Source: Thiosulfatimonas sediminis
GTDB taxonomy: Bacteria > Pseudomonadota > Gammaproteobacteria > Thiomicrospirales > Thiomicrospiraceae
Reading direction: 5' to 3'
NCBI RefSeq assembly: GCF_011398355.1
Contig: NZ_AP021889.1
Span: 558,001-622,000 of the forward strand
Length of the DNA stretch: 64,000 bases
Below are positions 22,428-31,325 of the stretch, one piece after another; position 1 is the first letter of the stretch; each line of letters begins with the position of its first letter. Both the position numbers and the translations under genes were made by a program. The notes beneath the pieces were generated by a model, which had not been told where the DNA came from, did no database searches, and saw only the letters and a program-made list of their open reading frames with translations.

Positions 22428-22454
22428 TAGCGTTTTGTTCTTTGGAATTGATGG

Positions 22455-22473
22455 TGGTACACTATTTGGTACA
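22455..22473 (+). promoter_or_regulatory. Direct repeat TGGTACA, possible antitoxin operator
   Basis: TGGTACA occurs at 22455-22461 and again at 22467-22473, a 12-base period, just before the ribosome-binding site of the antitoxin gene. YefM/Phd antitoxins bind repeated sites at their own promoter, so this is a candidate operator. Confidence 0.35.
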
Positions 22474-22498
22474 TAAGGTAGTGGGAGAGGTTAAAGTC

Positions 22499-22759
22499 AT
22501 GGCAATGATGACTGCAACAGAAGCAAGAAAGTCATTTTTTGAAATTATTAAACAAACCAATCAACAACATGAAATTATTCAGGTACAGCATAAATCTGGC
22601 AACGCGGTCATTATGTCTGCTGATGATTATGAAAGCTTGCAGGAAACGCTACACCTTTTGTCGCAACCAGATTTTAAACAGAAGTTTAATCAGTCCGTCT
22701 CTGAAGCTGATTCAGGTGAAGTAGCTAGTTTTGAAGAGGTATTTGGAGAGCCTTTGTGA
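22499..22759 (+). CDS. Phd/YefM-family antitoxin
   Basis: ATG 22499 (MAMMTATEARKSFFEII) follows GGGAGAGG by eight bases. The 86-residue protein has the N-terminal YefM/Phd DNA-binding fold (TATEARKSFFEIIKQTNQQHEIIQVQHKSGNAVIMSADDYESLQETLHLL) and an acidic C-terminal tail ending SFEEVFGEPL that would wrap the toxin. Its end overlaps the toxin GTG by four bases. Pairing with a RelE/YoeB toxin is the standard arrangement. Confidence 0.9.
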   Translation: MAMMTATEARKSFFEIIKQTNQQHEIIQVQHKSGNAVIMSADDYESLQETLHLLSQPDFKQKFNQSVSEADSGEVASFEEVFGEPL

Positions 22760-23019
22760 GCTGTAAGCGCTATCAAATAGAATTTACTAAGCAGGCACAA
22801 AAAGATGTCGCCAAACTCTCGCCAAAGTTGAAGAACAAGCTCAAAGACATCTTACGCAATAAAATTTCGGTTTTTCCGCAAACTGGTAAGCCAATCGTTG
22901 GAGATTTAAAGGGGTATTATTCTGTACGCCTAAGTTTCCAAGATCGCATAGTTTATCGAATAGAAAATAACAGATGTGTTGTATTGGTTGTTAGGGCGAA
23001 AACGCATTATGGTGAATAA
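22756..23019 (+). CDS. RelE/YoeB-family toxin
   Basis: Starts with GTG 22756 in a GTGA overlap with the antitoxin stop. The 87-residue basic protein has YQIEFTKQAQKDVAKLSPKLKNKLKDILRN, GDLKGYYSVRLSFQDRIVYRIE and the C-terminal RAKTHYGE, the pattern of RelE-superfamily mRNA interferases of the Txe/YoeB type. The C-terminal histidine and tyrosine are the expected catalytic region. Activity is inferred from the family. Confidence 0.88.
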   Translation: MSCKRYQIEFTKQAQKDVAKLSPKLKNKLKDILRNKISVFPQTGKPIVGDLKGYYSVRLSFQDRIVYRIENNRCVVLVVRAKTHYGE

Positions 23020-23127: not shown

Positions 23128-24270
23128 TTAATCACCACTTTGTATTGTGTCGACGATGAGTTTTTTTGCGGCGTCAAAATCCACCTTGCCGTTTAACTCT
23201 AGTACCGGAATATCGCTAAGTCGTTGTTGGTAGCTTGCGGCATTGGGAATGATGCCGTTTTCTAGGAAGTGACCGCCTGCATCACAATAAAAAGGCCCGG
23301 GACTTTTCATTAATGCCGGAATCAAGTGCGGCGATTCTTGTAAGTTGGTCTGTTTCAGCGACGTTGCTTTATCGGTTTGCGCCTGCCAATTTAGAATCAC
23401 CAGATAATCCAATTTGGCTTCGCCTTGATAGCAGTTTGACCAGAAAAGTTGATCGACCGGCGCATCGTATTTCAGTTCTAAAGCGCGTAATTCTTCGCTT
23501 GGCATGGCCAAAAAGTTATGCCGTTCTTGCTCGCTCATCAGCGAGTGCAGACGTGGGTTATGAACAATTGTGCCGGGGTTAATGCGCGGTTGTTTTGGAA
23601 TGCCGCGCATCTGCATCTGGCCATCGACTTGATTGAACAGCAGTCGGTCGTTGCTGACAAAATGCTCGCCGTTTTCCAGTAAATGCAGCATCAGCGTCGA
23701 TTTTCCACCGCCGGAGAGTCCGGCTATCGCTAAGCCTTTGCCATTGATTTGTAAACCGGCAGCGTGACCGAGTAGCCAATCTTGACGCAAATGCTGATTC
23801 AGGTATTGGGTCAAAATGAAATTAATCATCTGGTTCGGATGCTGTTTCGCCGGACCGAAAGCCATTAGCGGATCGCCGATATTATTACTGCTCGGTTGCA
23901 CGAACAACATGCCGGTTTTCACTTTATGTAACAACCGTACGCTGCCATCGGTATTTTGCAATGAATACACCGCGTCTTTTCGTCCCGATTTACCGGCTTC
24001 GCGTAGCCAATCTACCCAAGGCGTTGCGGCGATTAATTGCGCCGCGTCAGGCGTGTGCCAAAGATAGATGTCGGTGCTTGCGATCGAGATTTCAGTCGGT
24101 TTTTCCCAAGAAGCCAATCCGACAAAATAATCCTTGAGAGTTCCGAGCAGACTGCGCGAGTTACTGAACAATCGATAGTTGGCTTGCGGCAGAGTGAGCC
24201 ATAGCGTTTGCTCAATGGCCGGCGGATGTTGGCTAATCAATTGTTGGTACAGCGCAGAGATGTGACTCAT
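23128..24270 (-). CDS. HprK-related kinase B (GAK system)
   Basis: A 380-residue protein related to HPr kinase/phosphorylase. The P-loop GLSGGGKSTLMLHLLENGEHFVSNDRLL lies at about residues 183-191, followed by NDR and GIPKQPRINPGTI, where HprK has its second signature. The N-terminal 170 residues are specific to this group, and there is no separate HPr gene here. I recognise it as the HprK-related kinase B family named from comparative genomics together with an ATP-grasp enzyme and amphi-Trp proteins. It is the last gene of the minus-strand cluster running down from 29871, separated from the ATP-grasp gene by a toxin-antitoxin pair. Its substrate is unknown. Confidence 0.85.
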   Translation of the reverse strand: MSHISALYQQLISQHPPAIEQTLWLTLPQANYRLFSNSRSLLGTLKDYFVGLASWEKPTEISIASTDIYLWHTPDAAQLIAATPWVDWLREAGKSGRKDAVYSLQNTDGSVRLLHKVKTGMLFVQPSSNNIGDPLMAFGPAKQHPNQMINFILTQYLNQHLRQDWLLGHAAGLQINGKGLAIAGLSGGGKSTLMLHLLENGEHFVSNDRLLFNQVDGQMQMRGIPKQPRINPGTIVHNPRLHSLMSEQERHNFLAMPSEELRALELKYDAPVDQLFWSNCYQGEAKLDYLVILNWQAQTDKATSLKQTNLQESPHLIPALMKSPGPFYCDAGGHFLENGIIPNAASYQQRLSDIPVLELNGKVDFDAAKKLIVDTIQSGD

Positions 24271-24341
24271 TAAATATACAACCTTTAAATCCTTTTTTTA
24301 TTAACGTATTGATTTTTAAATGAATTTTATTCGTAAGGTTT

Positions 24342-24632
24342 TTATGTTTTTATTCGGTATGTCGCATCTCGATAAGCCCGTTCTTTATCACGTTTACCAA
24401 TTGCAACAACAAACACCACTACACGGGCATCTTGTACTTGATAAATCAATCGATAGCCACTTTGACGTAATTTGATTTTGTAACAATTATCAAGCTCTCT
24501 AAGTTCATTCTTCTTAACTTTTGGGTTCTCAATAACCTTCTCAAGTTTCTTTTTTAATTGGCTACGAATACTCCCATCCAGTTGTTTCCATTCCTTGAGT
24601 GCGCGTTCATCAAATTCAAGGCTATAAGTCAT
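24342..24632 (-). CDS. RelE-family toxin
   Basis: 96 residues: MTYSLEFDERALKEWKQLD at the start, KLRQSGYRLIYQVQDARVVVFVVAIGKRDKERAYRDA near the end. These are the core strands and basic active-site region of RelE mRNA interferases (close to the RelE of the RelBE type). The start overlaps the end of the antitoxin gene by 11 bases. Cleavage of ribosome-bound mRNA is inferred from the family. Confidence 0.9.
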   Translation of the reverse strand: MTYSLEFDERALKEWKQLDGSIRSQLKKKLEKVIENPKVKKNELRELDNCYKIKLRQSGYRLIYQVQDARVVVFVVAIGKRDKERAYRDATYRIKT

Positions 24633-24861
24633 CCAAACTCACCGCAACAGGCTTAGGGTCATTTAAACGCTCACGAACGGTTTCCAATAAATCTAAATCT
24701 TCATCATTTAAAAGCACGGGTTTAAATGGAAGTTTATGGTTTTGAGCTACGTATTCTAAAGTTTGACGTAATAACTCTGACGGAGTGATGTTTAAGTCTT
24801 CTAAGGCTTGGTAGGCTTCGCTTTTAAGATTGTCGTCAACTCTAATTGTGATAGTTCCCAT
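24622..24861 (-). CDS. RelB/DinJ-family antitoxin
   Basis: ATG at 24861 (MGTITIRVDDNLKSEAYQAL) has a GAGG-type site just upstream; earlier in-frame starts are poorer. The 79-residue protein has the ribbon-helix-helix N-terminus of RelB/DinJ (TITIRVDDNLKSEAYQALEDLNITPSELLRQTLEYVA) and an acidic C-terminal part. It would bind the RelE toxin and repress its own promoter. The pair lies between the ATP-grasp and HprK-related genes, in the same direction. Confidence 0.9.
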   Translation of the reverse strand: MGTITIRVDDNLKSEAYQALEDLNITPSELLRQTLEYVAQNHKLPFKPVLLNDEDLDLLETVRERLNDPKPVAVSLDDL

Positions 24862-25012
24862 GATTTTTCCTCTGGATAAAGTAATTACATTTGTAATCAC
24901 AATAGCATAAATTTCCTGTAATGAGAATTGTGTTTGTCAATCGTTGCAACCAATTGAATTTAAAATTATTTCAATGTAAGAAAGCGAGAACTACATACCA
25001 TGAATAGTCTCT

Positions 25013-25921
25013 CTATTGTGCGTTTTGCAATTGCTTGATAACGTAATCGACGTAGGTTTGCGCCATATTCAAGCCAAGACCGTCTTTCGCGCCCTTAAAG
25101 CCGCCGAAGGCCGAGACTTCAAAGCAAACTGGTCCCTGTTCGGTTTCCGCAATATCAACGGTGGTGTAGGCTAAATCAAATTGCGCCTGCGCTTTGTGCG
25201 CCATTTCGATAATTTCTTCGCTCGGTTTAACTTCGGCATATTTACCGCCGGAGTGAATGGTCGTGTTCCAACTGTCGCCGTTGGCAACGCGGGCATAGGC
25301 CCCTTGATATTCGCCGCCGAGGAACACCAATCCCATGTCGTGACCGGGCAGTTTCAGCTTTTGTTGGATATAGAAGAATTTGTGGATGTCGTAAAATTCC
25401 TGTAATTCTTTCATCATCTTTTTGTCGCTCTGCTCGGCGCTGATCACCTGCATGCCGCGCGCTTTGGTCGAGAACAGCGGCTTAAGAATGACTTCGCCGA
25501 ACTCTTTGACCGCTTGCAAAGCGGCATCGATATCTTCAGTAATCACGGTTTTCGGCATCGGAATTTTGGCGCGAGCTAAGGAAATAGTGCAGCTCATACG
25601 ATCGACCAGGCGGATGATTTCACACGGTTTGGAATAGACTTTTACACCACAGGATTCGACAAACCGTAAAATTTCCAAACGATCCAAAACCATCGGACTA
25701 TAGGTTTGTGAGATTTTCTTAATGATGATCGCATCGAGTTCACATAGACATTGGCCGTTATAGGTGACGGTCGGGGTCGCTAGGTCAGCGACTACTTTTT
25801 CGATGTCTATCACGCAACGGAAGCCGGTTTTGGCTTCAATCTCATCGGCGAGCACTTCGGTCGACCATTTGCCGGGGATGCCGACGACACCGATTTTGAG
25901 TTGCGATACTGGCTTAATCAC
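25013..25921 (-). CDS. GAK system ATP-grasp enzyme (RimK-like)
   Basis: 302 residues. The N-terminal domain begins LKIGVVGIPGKWSTEVLADEIEAKTG; the ATP-grasp domain follows, with DRMSCTISLARAKIPMPKTVIT, the lysine strand GEVILKPLFSTKARGMQVI and the metal-binding end TTVDIAETEQGPVCFEVSAFGGFKGAKDGLG. The fold is that of RimK/glutathione-synthetase ligases joining a carboxylate to an amine or thiol. I recognise it as the ATP-grasp of the GAK group. Its start overlaps the upstream phosphotransferase end by eight bases, so the two are translationally linked. Substrate unknown. Confidence 0.85.
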   Translation of the reverse strand: MIKPVSQLKIGVVGIPGKWSTEVLADEIEAKTGFRCVIDIEKVVADLATPTVTYNGQCLCELDAIIIKKISQTYSPMVLDRLEILRFVESCGVKVYSKPCEIIRLVDRMSCTISLARAKIPMPKTVITEDIDAALQAVKEFGEVILKPLFSTKARGMQVISAEQSDKKMMKELQEFYDIHKFFYIQQKLKLPGHDMGLVFLGGEYQGAYARVANGDSWNTTIHSGGKYAEVKPSEEIIEMAHKAQAQFDLAYTTVDIAETEQGPVCFEVSAFGGFKGAKDGLGLNMAQTYVDYVIKQLQNAQ

Positions 25922-27542
25922 GGAATAGCTCCTTAGGTAACTGGTAGTTTTTATATTCTTGTTTACTCATTTGGCTAAGATGTTCCAGTATAAAACGCCC
26001 TTTATAGAGCATGGCTCGAGCGTGTTCTTTATCGAGCACAAAACGGGTTGAGCTGATAAAAGAGCGCGCCAGACCGAGAGCCATGCGCAGGGCAAAGTCA
26101 TTATCATTATGTTGTTCGGCGTAATCAGCGCCGAAATCGTAAATCGCCTGCATACTGAGACGAATGCGCTGGCGGATTTTTGGGCTGTATTGTTTTAAGC
26201 GGTAGAAAGAGACGATCAGCACCGAGAGATCTTGCGTGTAATCTTGATAGTCGGAACGATGCAGATCGATGAAGTTGATTTCGCATTTGTCGGCATCATA
26301 CAAGATATTGTCGACATTGAAGTCGCCATGAATATAGACCGCTTTCGCAGGCTGTAGTTTTTGTTCCAGCTTGATGGCGTGTTTAATTAAGGTTTCTAGC
26401 GACGGCTGTTTGGCATCACCGATTTGTAGTCCTTTTAAATTAAATTCCGGATGAACCGCATAGACGCTTTTAAGGCGTTTTTGCAGCTGCGGCATAAAAC
26501 TGGTGTTAATGCCTTGCGCTTGTTCGGTCGCCTGCCAAATCTCGGTCAAGGTCGCAAACAGACAGTTCAGTCCGTCTTGCAACACCGTGCGATTATCGAG
26601 CAGTAGCTTGTCGAATGTTTTACCGGTTAGGTATTCAAATAACAACGCTGCCTTGTCGCCTTGTTTTTGGTAGGAATAAACTTCCGGCGCTATGCCGGGG
26701 AATTTTTCGTGCCAGCTTTCGATGCCGATTTTCTCTTCCAGCAGTTTTTTCTTTTGCCCTTCTTTGAAAATCGCTAAGAGTTCATCCTGCGCTTCGCTTG
26801 CTGAGGCGACACCGGAAATGGTGCAGCCGGATTTGGTTTCGCCCATCGAATGAATGTGAATTTGATGCTCGGCAAGATCCAAATCCATTGCCGACAGGGT
26901 CGCTTCTAATTTTTGATAGCTGTCGATTTCGATAAACTGTCCGAGCTTGCCGGAAATGATTCCCTCGCCGACCTTGAGTAGGGTGCGCGCCATATATTGA
27001 ATGTCTTTGACCACAAAGCTACTCTGCATCAGCGCTTCGTCATAGCGTTCTTGCAATTTTTGTTGGTAGCGTTTCAGCTGTTGGCGACAGACCTTGTCCA
27101 TCCGCACTTGTAGTTGGCAGATATCAATCGACAGTGCAAGCTCTTCGCTTTCGATCGCCGGTTCGATCAATTCCAAGCCGTTATTCAGATCTTGCAAGGC
27201 ACTGAGGACGCGTTTTTTTTGCAGGCTGTGCAAGGCGTCGCTGCGTTGCAGTTGATAACTAATGGTTTCCAATTGGCGCGATAAGCTGATTAAGCTGTAG
27301 GAGACGTGTTCATAGCCTTGAATCACGGCACGATAATCTTGGTTGCTGTTTTGAATGGCTTGGTAGGCGCGGTTCAGCAAACTGAGGTGTGCGTTTTCAA
27401 TATAGGCGGTGCGGCTTAAACTACGGGCAAAACTTTCTGGGTCGGCTTCGTTCACGCCTTCAATCACAGCCAGAAGCTGTTTTTGCAGATCGATAAGCAG
27501 AAAGCGTAGGCTTTCATAGATTTCCGGAAATAATTTGTTCAT
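25914..27542 (-). CDS. APH-like phosphotransferase with helical N-terminal domain
   Basis: 542 residues. The N-terminal 200 residues are helical and PhoU-like in look (SLSRQLETISYQLQRSDALHSLQKKRVLSALQDLNNGLELIEPAIESEEL). The C-terminal half has the aminoglycoside-phosphotransferase/choline-kinase catalytic motif HGDFNVDNILYD (about 404-415) and the metal-binding FIDLHRSDYQDYTQDLSVLI. A lobe with YEYLTGK-like sequence (LLFEYLTGKTFDKLLL) would bind nucleotide. It lies between the amphi-Trp and ATP-grasp genes of the GAK cluster. The substrate may be a small molecule or a protein; nothing in the sequence decides this. Confidence 0.8.
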   Translation of the reverse strand: MNKLFPEIYESLRFLLIDLQKQLLAVIEGVNEADPESFARSLSRTAYIENAHLSLLNRAYQAIQNSNQDYRAVIQGYEHVSYSLISLSRQLETISYQLQRSDALHSLQKKRVLSALQDLNNGLELIEPAIESEELALSIDICQLQVRMDKVCRQQLKRYQQKLQERYDEALMQSSFVVKDIQYMARTLLKVGEGIISGKLGQFIEIDSYQKLEATLSAMDLDLAEHQIHIHSMGETKSGCTISGVASASEAQDELLAIFKEGQKKKLLEEKIGIESWHEKFPGIAPEVYSYQKQGDKAALLFEYLTGKTFDKLLLDNRTVLQDGLNCLFATLTEIWQATEQAQGINTSFMPQLQKRLKSVYAVHPEFNLKGLQIGDAKQPSLETLIKHAIKLEQKLQPAKAVYIHGDFNVDNILYDADKCEINFIDLHRSDYQDYTQDLSVLIVSFYRLKQYSPKIRQRIRLSMQAIYDFGADYAEQHNDNDFALRMALGLARSFISSTRFVLDKEHARAMLYKGRFILEHLSQMSKQEYKNYQLPKELFRD

Positions 27543-27587
27543 TGAGCAAACAGCCTTAACAGAGAAAAACGAGGAAGCAGGGATGGG

Positions 27588-27887
27588 TTAGGATTTTTTC
27601 GGTTTTTTTGCTTTCTTCGCCTTAATGAACAGCGGCTCGTTATCCGGCTCTTCATCGGTTTGCTTATTCCATGTTAGTTTGATGCGTAAGCTTTGGCTTT
27701 TCTTGGTGCTACTTGCTTTCAAGCTCATCAGGGTCAGGTCGCTCGGCTGCATAATCTGTTTCTCATCGCCGTCGGAGAGCAGGATTTCACCCGTTTTGAC
27801 CGCATTCGCTAAGGCGTGTAGATAGTTAACAACGGCATCGCGATCTTGCAGAGATTCATGCTCAAAATATTGGGTTTTTTTAGCCAT
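27588..27887 (-). CDS. Amphi-Trp domain protein
   Basis: ATG at 27887 with AAGGAGAG just upstream is the best start. The 99-residue protein begins MAKKTQYFEHESLQDRDAVVNYLHALANAVKTGEILLSDGDEKQIMQPSDLTLMSLKAS and has the amphipathic strand LRIKLTWNKQ ending in the tryptophan that names the amphi-Trp family, followed by a K-rich tail (AKKAKKPKKS). The family is a marker of the GAK assemblage. No enzymatic motif is visible; it may be a substrate or scaffold of the neighbouring kinase and ligase. Confidence 0.85.
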   Translation of the reverse strand: MAKKTQYFEHESLQDRDAVVNYLHALANAVKTGEILLSDGDEKQIMQPSDLTLMSLKASSTKKSQSLRIKLTWNKQTDEEPDNEPLFIKAKKAKKPKKS

Positions 27888-27929
27888 ATCGCTCTCCTTT
27901 TTAGATGACAAAATAAGCACAATTGTCGC

Positions 27930-29153
27930 TTAGACTAGCAAGCTTTCTTGCCATTGATCTTGACCCGGCGCAAAGTTTCGTTGTAACACGCCGAGTGAAA
28001 AACGATTGCTGCTCAATGCACTGACCGTACCACAGGTTTTAAACATTGTCACCGCAGAGGCTCCTGGAGCTAGCTGGCTTTTTGCACGGCAGTTGGCATT
28101 CAGCTCCGCATCACACTCGATGTGCAATAATTTATTGCGGAACACCAATTGCTGACCATTGATATGCGCACGGTGGCCATTGACCAAAGCGTGAATGCCT
28201 TGATTTTTTAATGCCTGAACACCAAGTTCGCTTAATGGATGGTCTTTGTCGCGATATTTAGTGCGCACGACATTGCCGAGTTCGTTGTAGTAGATTTCGA
28301 AAATCTTACCTTGTTGCAACTTTCGGTTGAATTCCTGATTCAGTCGCTCGAAGCCTTCGTCTTGCATGCGGTGGATAATGCGATCGTCAACACCGGCATG
28401 ACAAAATAGATAGCTGCCGTGGCGTTGCATCAATTCGAGGTTTTGGAAAAACCAATAGAATTCGCCGTCTGGTTCGATAAACAGTTGTTTGGTTTTCTCG
28501 ACCGCCAGCGCTAGATGCTGCCAGTCATAGCCGTATTCACGCCACGCTTTGATAAAGGAGAGGCGTTTTTTACGAATCTGCTTGATCTCTTTTTTAATCT
28601 GTTTGGCGGTCATGAAATTACGCGCATACTGTGGAAACAGTTCAAACCAATCTTCATCCGGCATCAGCGAGTTTTCAATCCAGCTTGCCGGTGTTTTCGG
28701 CAACGGCATCCCAGTGCAATATTGTTGGAACACTTCGGCAAACAGCGATGCCGCTTTACGGCCCATGCGCACGAAAAAATGCGCTTGGCGTAAATCGTCT
28801 TGGAAATCGGTCGCCAAGAGTCCTGCATAGACACGTAGATCATGATTGCCGGCAAGAATCTGTAAATCCATTCCGGATTGCTGTAGCTGTTTTAACAAAC
28901 GAAACAGGCTGAGATTACTCGGTCCTTTATCAAAGCAATCGCCTCCGATTATGACTGTCGCCGTGGCCGCACTGTCGGTTAAAACCGTTTGTTGTAGCGT
29001 TGAATCTTGCGTTACCAGTTTACCGAGTTTAAGCGAAGCCAGAAGGGCATCGGCATCGGCGTGTAGGTCGCAGATAAAATGAATCGGTTTACTCGGCGCT
29101 GCCCAATGATTCGGAGGCGCTGTTAAGGTATTTGCGTGAGCGATATTTAACAT
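27930..29153 (-). CDS. Calcineurin-like metallophosphoesterase
   Basis: ATG 29153 (MLNIAHANTL), ten bases after the upstream stop, gives 407 residues; an in-frame start at 29210 would overlap the previous gene. The dimetal motifs are complete and in order: D29-L-H31 (ICDLHADADA), GGDCFDKG (71-77), GNHD (102-105), a later CHAGVDDR and a HALVNGHRAHING near residue 335. This is the PPP-type order, as in Ser/Thr phosphatases. It may act as a protein or nucleotide phosphatase. It belongs to the minus-strand GAK cluster. Confidence 0.85.
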   Translation of the reverse strand: MLNIAHANTLTAPPNHWAAPSKPIHFICDLHADADALLASLKLGKLVTQDSTLQQTVLTDSAATATVIIGGDCFDKGPSNLSLFRLLKQLQQSGMDLQILAGNHDLRVYAGLLATDFQDDLRQAHFFVRMGRKAASLFAEVFQQYCTGMPLPKTPASWIENSLMPDEDWFELFPQYARNFMTAKQIKKEIKQIRKKRLSFIKAWREYGYDWQHLALAVEKTKQLFIEPDGEFYWFFQNLELMQRHGSYLFCHAGVDDRIIHRMQDEGFERLNQEFNRKLQQGKIFEIYYNELGNVVRTKYRDKDHPLSELGVQALKNQGIHALVNGHRAHINGQQLVFRNKLLHIECDAELNANCRAKSQLAPGASAVTMFKTCGTVSALSSNRFSLGVLQRNFAPGQDQWQESLLV

Positions 29154-29163
29154 TTTGAACCTT

Positions 29164-29871
29164 CTAATCGGGACGTTCGACTTCTTGGCGGACTTTCCAT
29201 TTGCCGGCAATCAAATCAATCGCCATGGCATGCTGTTCTTGGCGGCATTCAAAGACCATCGGTTGTGCATAATGCATCGAGTAGCGTCCGATTTCCGCTT
29301 TTTCCAAAATACCAAGTTGATAGGCGGCATGACGGAAAGACGCGCCGTGACCAATCATGATGATTAATTGTGGACGATCGCTTTGCGAGCTCTGCGCCAA
29401 TACTTGGTTTAGCGTCTGTTGGATAAATTGGCTAACGCGGGTACCGGATTGCATTAAAGATTCGGCACCGTCGACTGGCAGACAGAAATCGGAATTGCTT
29501 TTCCAGTGTGGCGGAAGCGGCGAAAAACGCGGGTCCTGTTCGATAACCCCTTCGATTTCGCTCAGGGTCAAGTTTGCTAAAGAACCGACCGAACGCTCGT
29601 TTAATTGCGCGGTACTGCTGATTTGGCACGGCCACGGCAGATGGTGTTCGATTTCATTAGCGGTCTGCCATGCACGTAAGAGATTGGCACTGTAAATATT
29701 GGGATAGAGCGTCCAATTTTGGTGCTCAATCAGTTTTTGTAAAGTCTCGGCGGCTTGCTGACACGCCTCAATTCCTTGTTCGGTCAGGCCATGCGGTTGG
29801 TGTGCGCTCGGTACTTGCTCAGCTTGGTAATAGTGAGCATGGCGCAAAAAAGCTAGATAACATCGTTTCAT
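29164..29871 (-). CDS. Histidine phosphatase family protein (SixA-like)
   Basis: 235 residues starting MKRCYLAFLRHAHYYQAEQ, with the catalytic R10-H11 in RHA (usual RHG or RHA), then NERSVGSLANLTLSEIEG and the second catalytic histidine in IIMIGHGASFRHAAYQL. Length and order match phosphoglycerate-mutase-like phosphatases; SixA-type members remove phosphate from histidine residues of proteins. It is the first gene of the GAK cluster, and an HprK-related kinase lies at the other end, so a phosphorylation and dephosphorylation cycle is plausible but not shown. Confidence 0.85.
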   Translation of the reverse strand: MKRCYLAFLRHAHYYQAEQVPSAHQPHGLTEQGIEACQQAAETLQKLIEHQNWTLYPNIYSANLLRAWQTANEIEHHLPWPCQISSTAQLNERSVGSLANLTLSEIEGVIEQDPRFSPLPPHWKSNSDFCLPVDGAESLMQSGTRVSQFIQQTLNQVLAQSSQSDRPQLIIMIGHGASFRHAAYQLGILEKAEIGRYSMHYAQPMVFECRQEQHAMAIDLIAGKWKVRQEVERPD

Positions 29872-29940
29872 GGCGTCAGTATAAAAATGCAGAATGACGC
29901 TCAGATAACACCTAGTTGAAAGATTTATGACAGACTGTAA

Positions 29941-29978
29941 AACAGAAAACGGCCCGATGAATGATCAAACGGGCCGTT
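29941..29978 (-). terminator. Terminator of nrdB
   Basis: ACGGCCCG (29949-29956) and CGGGCCGT (29970-29977) are perfect 8-base arms; on the minus strand they are followed by TTTCTGTTTT. It separates nrdB from the GAK cluster on the same strand. Confidence 0.85.
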
Positions 29979-30006
29979 ATTCAAGAGAAGAGGATAATTG
30001 ATTAAT

Positions 30007-31140
30007 CTATAGTGAACAGTCGCTAAAGTCAGAGGTGTCGACTTTGGAGTCCACTTGACCGACCAGATAAGAGCTGATTTCAGACTCCTGCGGCGCGACT
30101 TGAACATTGTCGGAAACTAACCAGTTGTTCATCCACGGTAGCGGGTTGCTGCGATTTTCGAAGATCGGTTCAAAATTCAACGCTTTCAGACGCACGTTAG
30201 TGATGTACTCAACATATTCTTTCAGAATGCTGGCATTCAAGCCAATCATCGAACCGTCTTTAAACAGGTATTCTGCCCACTCTTTTTCTTGCTGTGCGGC
30301 AGAACGGAAAATTTCAATTGCCGCTTCTTTTTGTTCTTTGGCAATCTCCGCCATTTCCGGGTCGTCTTTGCCGCTCGCCATCAGGCTTAGCATGTTTTGC
30401 GTACCGGAAAGGTGCAAGGCTTCATCACGCGCAATCAGTTTGATTACTTTGGCATTGCCTTCCATCAATGAGCGTTCAGCAAAGCTAAAACTGCAAGCAA
30501 AAGAGACGTAGAAACGAATTGCTTCCAGCACATTCACTGAAACTAACGTCAGATAGAGCTGAGTCTTAATCTGTTTGCGGAAGTCCGGTTCATTGGCCAA
30601 ATCAATTTGGTTGGCGTACATCTTATTTGTCAGCGCAATCAGTTCGTCATAGTGAGACGTCACCGCCAAAGCCCGTTTGGTGATTTCTTGGTTATCGACA
30701 ATATCATCGAACACTTCCGACGGATTGTTAAAAATATTGCGGATGATGTGCGTGTAAGAGCGGCTGTGAATGGTTTCGGAAAATGCCCAGGTTTCAATCC
30801 ACGTTTCTAACTCCGGCAAAGACACCAGTGGCAAAAGTGCCACATTGGGTGAGCGACCTTGTACCGAATCTAGGAGGGTTTGGTATTTTAGGTTGGAGAT
30901 AAAAACGTGTTGTTCGTTTTCCGGCAAACTTTGATATTGACCGCGATCGCTAGAGATGTCGACCTCTTCCGGACGCCAAAAAAACGAAAGTTGTTTTTCA
31001 ATCAGCTTTTCAAAAAAGGGATATTTTTGCTGGTCGTAACGCGCTACATTGACATTTTGACCAAAAAACATAGGCTCTTTCAGGGCATTGTTATGGCTCT
31101 GACAAAATGTTGAATAGGTGTTTTTTTCTTGGCAACTCAT
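30007..31140 (-). CDS. nrdB: Class Ia ribonucleotide reductase beta subunit
   Basis: ATG 31140 ([12 protein letters not shown]) follows AAGGAT and gives 377 residues, one more than E. coli NrdB; the open frame continues upstream without family similarity. Diiron-ligand motifs are visible: [16 protein letters not shown] and [13 protein letters not shown], and the C-terminal acidic-hydrophobic tail that binds NrdA ([10 protein letters not shown]). It holds the tyrosyl radical for deoxyribonucleotide synthesis. No nrdA or ferredoxin gene is next to it in the window, unlike the E. coli nrdAB layout. Confidence 0.94.
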
Positions 31141-31325
31141 ATCCGTTTTATCCTTTGGTTTTTTGTATCTCCTTAAAGGGAAGATGCGCATTTTTAGACA
31201 AAAATCGTAAAAAATCGTTGTTATTTCCAGACGGAAATTGACCGAACATTTTACAGCACAAAAGTTAATCATGGCATTTTAATTTAATGAGAAAGGGAAC
31301 AATGCCGATTCGGGTTTTGCAGGAT

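Follow-up and report, generated by a model that had tools for sequence, protein, structure and literature searches.

The GAK system is a gene cassette whose name exists, as far as found, only as protein-family models in NCBIfam. In this study, we analysed a locus that is a member of this already named cassette in the genome of Thiosulfatimonas sediminis (2.72 Mb, one contig), where it occupies positions 23128–29871 of a stretch of 64 000 nucleotides (the window; genome positions 558001–622000). Its six genes, encoding a histidine phosphatase, a calcineurin/PPP-type phosphoesterase, an amphi-Trp protein, a PhoU-containing kinase, an ATP-grasp ligase and an HprK-related kinase B, are one functional cassette, a real unit. 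We tentatively read it as a phosphate-linked modification module with amphi-Trp as its regular partner. New here are the PhoU domain of the kinase family, a GAK-specific tag on amphi-Trp, the phosphate-type genes that neighbour the cassette in some other genomes and the accessory SixA-Nudix and Nudix genes. The PhoU fusion, the tag and the CHAD/ParA and sodium/phosphate (Na/Pi) cotransporter neighbours make a claim of function testable, namely that phosphate or polyphosphate status is read or set by the module by way of amphi-Trp. Were this so, GAK would represent a new system of phosphate signalling or protein modification in bacteria.

The locus and its GAK membership

The region holds eight genes, all on the minus strand, which read from 29871 downwards as follows.

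29164..29871, minus strand: histidine phosphatase (branch 1), first cassette gene here; Pfam His_Phos_1 4.3e-15 and family alignment
27930..29153, minus strand: calcineurin/PPP-type metallophosphoesterase; Pfam Metallophos 3.6e-5 and family alignment
27588..27887, minus strand: amphi-Trp protein; TIGR04354 53 bits, cut-off 31; best start ATG at 27887
25914..27542, minus strand: kinase with N-terminal PhoU and C-terminal APH-like domain; Pfam APH 2e-10
25013..25921, minus strand: GAK ATP-grasp ligase, RimK/MptN-like; TIGR04356 463.2 bits, cut-off 300, and family alignment
24622..24900, minus strand: RelB/DinJ antitoxin; NF008412 117 bits, cut-off 96; part of an insertion, outside the cassette proper
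24342..24632, minus strand: RelE/ParE-type toxin; TIGR02385 36 bits, cut-off 27.9; same insertion as RelB
23128..24270, minus strand: HprK-related kinase B; TIGR04355 287.4 bits, cut-off 200

A sequence-only reading of the window had placed six minus-strand genes here in this order, and a check of the open reading frames together with the NCBIfam and Pfam families bears it out; the RelB/RelE pair, which separates kinase B from the remaining cassette genes, was overlooked. The catalytic motifs, including both phosphatase active sites, are intact as had been stated (motif scan of the window proteins and alignments). The layout is operon-like, and the kinase and ATP-grasp frames overlap by eight bases, an overlap shared by 38 of 78 relatives.

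The same reading had recognized a GAK cassette, rightly so, as the ATP-grasp, kinase B and adjacent amphi-Trp proteins all exceed curated NCBIfam cut-offs. Run against the GAK models, the ATP-grasp and HprK-related proteins both fall in GAK families, TIGR04356 and TIGR04355, so that the ATP-grasp, kinase B and amphi-Trp models matched here are those of the NCBIfam system (TIGR04354–04358). The CofD-like partner of that system (TIGR04357) is frequent, not universal (27 of the 80 related loci described below), and is lacking here: a search of the entire genome (E up to 0.001) found no CofD-like gene, in agreement with its reported absence from the stretch; in 14 control genomes the search gave weaker matches in seven, none over the cut-off. 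The XXXCH-domain protein (TIGR04358) gave no match in a search that had no positive control. For the PhoU-kinase, phosphoesterase and histidine phosphatase of the window, and for the one Nudix and one SixA-Nudix protein examined, NCBIfam gave no match to a GAK-specific model. The pathway had been called undescribed, and no description was found in the open-licence PMC full text of 5.39 million papers.

Co-occurrence and spread of the cassette

Two samples were used. A set of 398 Pseudomonadota genomes was profile-searched for the GAK ATP-grasp, kinase B and amphi-Trp proteins. Separately, a scan of named species genomes yielded at least 492 confirmed ATP-grasp stretches, in which one locus may count more than once; the best 80 of these, ranked by likeness to the window ATP-grasp, are loci L035–L114, which are not a random sample because they were chosen by that likeness. 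For L040, L049, L050, L075 and L103 the fetched stretch is 20.9 kb, and absences reported below for these loci hold within it. Many of the 80 loci end at contig ends, and 44 exceed 18 kb; in this long-locus set ATP-grasp is present by construction.

The genes co-occur tightly in both samples. Within the genome set, the GAK ATP-grasp is present in 14 of the 398 genomes (13 over the cut-off and G033 below it at 273.7 bits), and weaker RimK-type matches to the same search occur in many others. Kinase B is found at E up to 1e-20 in all 14 (in G033 at 198.9 bits, cut-off 200) and in 16 genomes overall, the other two being G140 and G184, where the match lies near a contig start. Amphi-Trp occurs in 21 genomes, comprising 13 of the 16 with kinase B and eight of the 382 others; two of these eight genomes without GAK matches are only 71% and 80% complete. 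The long loci contain amphi-Trp and the kinase in 44 cases each, kinase B in 42 and the histidine phosphatase and phosphoesterase in 39 each. All 80 loci have the ATP-grasp; 78 have the kinase, 74 have kinase B, 67 the histidine phosphatase, 62 the phosphoesterase and 61 amphi-Trp. All six genes run in one direction in 37 of the 44 long loci, and three gene orders account for 34. The commonest is kinase, ATP-grasp, kinase B, SixA-Nudix, histidine phosphatase, phosphoesterase, amphi-Trp (20 loci); the same order without SixA-Nudix is found in six, and the order of the window, a cyclic permutation of the commonest one, in eight. A chance neighbourhood is rejected by this co-occurrence across genomes and loci.

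The cassette is spread over many Gammaproteobacteria and Alphaproteobacteria and at least one planctomycete. The GAK ATP-grasp was also found at E up to 1e-40 in five Rhodobacterales plasmid records, with the whole set in the three inspected; no cassette relative was found in viral contigs. The planctomycete Rhodopirellula rubra (L113) has a complete GAK cluster that includes SixA-Nudix and Nudix genes; its ATP-grasp is nested among proteobacterial ones on a quick tree, so that horizontal transfer is possible.

The PhoU-kinase and the amphi-Trp protein

The kinase consists of a PhoU domain (approximately residues 1–210) and a C-terminal APH-like domain with the motifs HGDFNVDN and FIDLHRS. It had been described as having a helical N-terminal domain; the helical region stands, and its PhoU identity had been overlooked. 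Pfam PhoU (PF01895) is matched by 21 of 22 aligned family members (best 1.6e-16), and the family profile finds PhoU 4q25 in the PDB at 5.8e-11 over positions 17–220. The phosphate-uptake regulator PhoU has the same domain; the difference is that here it is fused to an APH-type kinase. Compared with APH resistance equivalogs, the window kinase reaches 38 bits for the two best models, whose cut-offs are 400 and 205.

The window amphi-Trp protein carries an N-terminal FEHESLQD tag at residues 8–15 and a K-rich tail, and its AlphaFold2 model consists of a helix and four strands (predicted local distance difference test, pLDDT, 84; predicted template-modelling score 0.60). The tag is specific to GAK. 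Among 74 GAK amphi-Trp sequences, none of which was dropped, F-x-H-x-S-L-Q lies at residues 8–14, F being invariant, H present in 72 and S in 71; Ser is replaced by Ala in two and by Val in one, and His by Tyr in two. None of the nine amphi-Trp matches from genomes without GAK has the tag, one of them (L137, below the family cut-off) keeping the F and H and lacking S-L-Q. Because amphi-Trp is present in all 44 long loci and bears this tag, it would fit the role of a regular non-enzyme partner of the cassette enzymes, as judged from sequence.

Several more specific roles were tried and rejected. A LysW-like or S6-like C-terminal acceptor is unsupported, since the last residues vary, as is the tag Ser or His as a single obligatory phospho-site, since Ala, Val and Tyr variants exist. 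No link was found across loci between loss of the tag His and loss of the histidine phosphatase. L139 lacks both, the enzyme is present in L108 beside a Tyr tag, and in L040, L048, L050, L075 and L103 the His is retained with no histidine phosphatase in the fetched stretch; His loss does not track enzyme loss because of L108. In L139 the tag Ser is missing as well, and both kinases, the ligase and the PPP phosphatase are kept.

Phosphate and polyphosphate neighbours

Neighbouring genes were surveyed in 123 proteins of 180–750 residues encoded within ~2.2 kb of the cluster at 56 loci, 44 of which yielded proteins; the 16 Thiomicrorhabdus-group loci L035–L050, L075, L103 and six near-duplicates were left out beforehand. 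The commonest Pfam families, in a ranking that rests on the 25 commonest of 155, are Na_Pi_cotrans, CHAD and CBS with seven each, followed by CNNM and CorC with six each; these 25 do not include polyphosphate kinase (PPK). The gene density of 74 genomes, a background unmatched by lineage and set against partly non-independent loci, would lead one to expect ~0.04 Na/Pi and ~0.03 CHAD genes. Profile searches of loci L032–L114 found CHAD in nine and an Na/Pi cotransporter in 11, some of the matches being weak (47 bits in L113, 85 bits in L086). CHAD was also found in two of six further loci, and in G014, outside the neighbour set, an Na/Pi cotransporter lies 3 kb from the ATP-grasp gene. On a quick ATP-grasp tree, with the count made over the positives and over loci of at least 14 kb, the CHAD label needs seven changes.

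The CHAD gene overlaps or abuts a ParA-like gene in all eight loci checked (the ParA Pfam match is shown for L061), and at L141:12790-15137 and L142:1094-3324 the pair stands in line with the GAK genes, as judged by sequence. CHAD-ParA pairs were seen beside, in line with or a few kilobases away from the GAK genes in L061, L064, L105, L107, L108, L109, L082 and L088; they are possibly a pair that positions polyphosphate granules. CNNM/CorC-type (magnesium transporter-like) genes, often paired, were seen in L082, L088, L092, L097, L099, L102, L107 and L110, usually flanking the cluster on the side of its CofD-like gene.

The literature describes CHAD domains as binding polyphosphate and occurring in polyphosphate gene clusters (PMC6537752), CHAD proteins as known from polyphosphate granules (PMC9239181) and a Streptomyces ppk-CHAD-Nudix operon as being under PhoR/PhoP control (PMC8003754). 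Some GAK operons likewise hold CHAD together with SixA-Nudix or Nudix genes; they differ from the Streptomyces ppk-pptA-nudix cluster in that the 25 commonest neighbour families do not include PPK, and the window copy differs in having no CHAD beside it.

Proposed working of the cassette

The working that we infer has four steps. The PhoU domain would read phosphate or metal-phosphate status and gate the APH-like kinase. The PhoU-kinase, the RimK-type ligase and kinase B would then act on a substrate, phosphorylating and extending it; amphi-Trp would carry this substrate or be the substrate itself, and the three enzymes would dock onto amphi-Trp through the F-x-H-x-S-L-Q tag. The PPP-type phosphoesterase and the histidine phosphatase, joined in other genomes by the SixA-Nudix fusion and the Nudix enzyme, would trim or reverse the product. 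The output would act on phosphate or polyphosphate handling. A bolder form of this proposal, which we regard as rather doubtful, is that GAK is a complete and so far undescribed write-and-erase system for phosphate status. In it the PhoU-gated kinase, the ligase and a PEPCK-like kinase would put a phosphorylated mark on amphi-Trp, or build a phosphorylated compound with it, via the tag, and up to four phosphohydrolases would erase the mark; in several lineages a CHAD protein and a ParA-type positioning ATPase encoded in one operon with the module would couple it to polyphosphate granules.

The sequence-only reading had proposed a modification-and-reversal cycle on a shared substrate. The tight GAK set and amphi-Trp as shared partner speak for it. 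Reversal looks optional, because L040, L050 and L075 have no phosphatase and the smallest set, in Sulfurivirga (L103), consists of amphi-Trp, kinase and ATP-grasp only; a Ser or His acceptor is not universal. Since the RelBE pair, the PhoU domain and the phosphate and CHAD links had been overlooked, the likely role differs from the one then suggested.

A number of observations weigh against a phosphate-linked module built around amphi-Trp. The loci without phosphatases do, as does the lack of kinase B in L103 and L049, both of which have amphi-Trp. The window kinase is the sole aligned family member with no Pfam PhoU match (E up to 1); its N-terminus aligns full length with the family despite this. 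The C-terminus of amphi-Trp is unconserved, with variable final residues, which speaks against RimK-style addition at the end, and its model found no PDB or viral structure at E <=0.001. The strict Nudix-box patterns fit none of 39 SixA-Nudix fusions. As for the neighbours, the ranking was not blind, the CHAD and Na/Pi families having been noticed beforehand; CBS domains tie with both at seven; the density background carries the limits given above; and the Na/Pi label needs just three changes on the ATP-grasp tree. No phosphate gene is found next to the window cassette, CHAD lying ~80 kb and the Na/Pi transporter ~500 kb away. As genome-wide correlates of GAK both were rejected: 7 of the 14 genomes with GAK and 36 of the 60 without it have CHAD, and 6 and 33, respectively, have the Na/Pi cotransporter.

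The ATP-grasp ligase and a possible cofactor-like pathway

The window ATP-grasp protein shares 88% identity with its Thiomicrorhabdus marina counterpart, with which it groups on the ATP-grasp tree, and carries the motifs KPLFSTKARGM and FEVSAFGG. It contains the RimK domain PF08443 (60.2 bits, cut-off 21), and its profile aligns full length with RimK 4iwx in the PDB (5.3e-20), sharing this alignment and domain with RimK, MptN and LysX. The Asn of the EVN-x-x-PG motif is a metal ligand in RimK. The GAK proteins have EVSAFGG in 84 of 84 sequences, the RimK pattern occurring in none; STKARGM replaces a loop of RimK in 80 of 84, and an Arg is aligned with the Lys of RimK's DK motif.

The ligase bears on a second reading, in which the cassette would run a small-molecule pathway resembling the late part of F420 synthesis or methanopterin synthesis. 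The ligase would attach an amino acid to a carboxylate phosphorylated by the kinases, the CofD-like protein, where present, would handle a nucleotide-linked donor, Nudix enzymes and phosphatases would clear intermediates and amphi-Trp would carry or bind the product. Because the best NCBIfam match of the ligase after its own GAK model is the methanopterin:glutamate ligase MptN (169 bits, cut-off 350), such a route stays in consideration as a somewhat improbable one. LysX and CofF are also matched in NCBIfam, all ten sequences that the PDB gives at E up to 1e-5 bear names of the RimK/LysX type, one of them (3vpb) being labelled differently, and CofD-like and Nudix genes are found in 27 and 37 of the 80 loci. 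Set against these are the lack of a CofD-like gene in this genome and the family of the CofD-like proteins themselves: in NCBIfam the two examined match only YvcK besides their own GAK model, although they do match the broad Pfam CofD family. The pathway would also leave the linkage to PhoU, CHAD and Na/Pi genes unexplained.

Kinase B and a possible HPr-like switch

Kinase B of the window has the P-loop GLSGGGKST and the motif SNDR, and its AlphaFold2 model (pLDDT 89) found HprK (6.1e-7) and phosphoenolpyruvate carboxykinase (PEPCK; 3.8e-6) as its best Foldseek matches. The match to HprK 3tqf has a probability of 1.00 and a template-modelling (TM) score of 0.61 by target length and 0.29 by query length. 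Among the matches listed, the TM scores by query length are 0.38–0.49 for PEPCK and 0.22–0.29 for HprK, all below 0.5. In fold, kinase B resembles HprK and PEPCK, with more of its length covered by PEPCK. Pfam Hpr_kinase_C gives 24.7 bits, below its cut-off of 33.3, and a sequence search of the PDB found chiefly short P-loop matches, to ABC transporters, and other weak ones, with HprK not among them. The HPr kinase/phosphatase signature is GRG-x-GV; run without a positive control, this pattern fits none of 73 kinase B proteins. Kinase B further differs from HPr kinase/phosphatase in its larger N-terminal part.

These data are relevant to a switch of the HprK–Crh/HPr kind, close to the idea of the sequence-only reading, in which kinase B would phosphorylate the tag Ser (or the His would be phosphorylated) and the PPP and histidine phosphatases would reverse this. 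HprK as best structural match, the high conservation of the tag His and Ser (72 and 71 of 74) and the SixA-like phosphatase of the accessory fusion (63.9 bits, below the SixA cut-off of 74.5) are in keeping with it, and one report describes the Nudix domain of a Nudix/histidine-phosphatase protein as dephosphorylating phospho-NDK (PMC11784022). The switch is weakened because cassettes that keep kinase B have Ala-for-Ser or Tyr-for-His tags (L139, L140 and L108) and because loci without phosphatases or without kinase B (L103 and L049, with amphi-Trp present) exist. The histidine phosphatase kept by L108 beside its Tyr, the missing signature and the greater coverage by PEPCK, at TM scores below 0.5, point the same way, and we consider such a switch unlikely.

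The phosphatases, the accessory genes and a possible pyrophosphorylated messenger

The histidine phosphatase retains R10, H11, R66, E92 and H175 (motifs RH, LRAWQT and GHGA); it reads RHA where 63 of 70 family members have RHG. The metal site of the phosphoesterase (D29, H31, D72, N103, H104, H252 and H327; DLHAD/GGDCFDKGP/GNHD) is likewise intact. Its start is better placed at the ATG at 29153 than at the TTG at 29210, and its sequence weakly matches ApaH structures (E 0.0014).

Accessory genes in the 80 loci are a SixA-Nudix fusion in 42, a separate Nudix gene in 37 (6–8 kb away in two) and the CofD-like gene in 27. In one example of each, Pfam assigns His_Phos_1 and NUDIX to the fusion and NUDIX to the separate gene. 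The Nudix half of one fusion passes the Pfam cut-off; its Nudix activity is unsure because the strict Nudix box fits none of the 39 fusions. Mycobacterial MutT1 (Nudix plus RHG phosphatase) combines the same two domain kinds in reversed order (PMC11784022). A search of this genome with one fusion found only a relative of the SixA half, a stand-alone gene at genome positions 2442571–2443056 that is 45% identical to it. In other genomes, an endonuclease/exonuclease/phosphatase-family gene was seen inside the GAK clusters at L088:12949-14823 and L057:4671-6554, together with a divergent Nudix-like gene of ~190 residues; both families were assigned on L088, where the Nudix match is below its cut-off. 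At L141:11105-12796 an ATPase-like and a small gene, resembling an AAA ATPase/RloB-type pair by eye, lie between the phosphoesterase and CHAD genes.

The eukaryotic inositol-pyrophosphate system comprises an ATP-grasp kinase, a histidine phosphatase and a Nudix enzyme, with PhoU/CHAD-type readers. The GAK cassette brings together these enzyme folds, one of its kinases carries a fused PhoU domain, and CHAD and Na/Pi genes lie nearby in some genomes; on this ground it might be a bacterial counterpart that makes and destroys a pyrophosphorylated messenger. In keeping with this, yeast Nudix enzymes are reported to act on inositol pyrophosphates and polyphosphate (PMC8064635, PMC11323792). The ligase itself argues otherwise: its profile finds RimK and LysX and, in the PDB at E up to 10, no inositol-phosphate ATP-grasp kinase, so that this assignment was rejected. 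The window locus contains no Nudix or SixA-Nudix gene, and with the strict box unmatched in the fusions, we hold this reading to be quite improbable.

The RelBE insertion and flanking genes

The G+C content of RelBE is 0.367, compared with 0.45–0.50 in the cassette genes, and the nearest relatives, L035 (Thiomicrorhabdus marina) and L038, leave no space for these genes at the equivalent site; on both counts RelBE is an insertion. An anti-phage or mobile conflict system, to which the patchy spread, the Rhodobacterales plasmid copies, this toxin–antitoxin insertion and a weak Pfam TCAD9 similarity of the kinase might point, is disfavoured to the point of being very improbable, as nine proteins, six from the window, match no PADLOC family, viral contigs hold no relative and a ribonucleotide-reductase-like neighbour is often kept in the kin of the window.

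Promoter and terminator scans of the locus were uninformative because they gave no more matches than shuffled sequence. A second toxin–antitoxin-like pair (22442–23019, plus strand, G+C 0.382; family assigned by eye) ends ~110 bases short of where the kinase B gene ends. On the other side, the cassette is preceded by a ribonucleotide reductase small-subunit-like gene at 30007–31272, named by eye, as in the 14 sources that make up the cluster of such neighbours. Between this gene and the cassette, at 29940–29990, a hairpin-like GGGCCGTT repeat was seen by eye, unlisted in the terminator scan.

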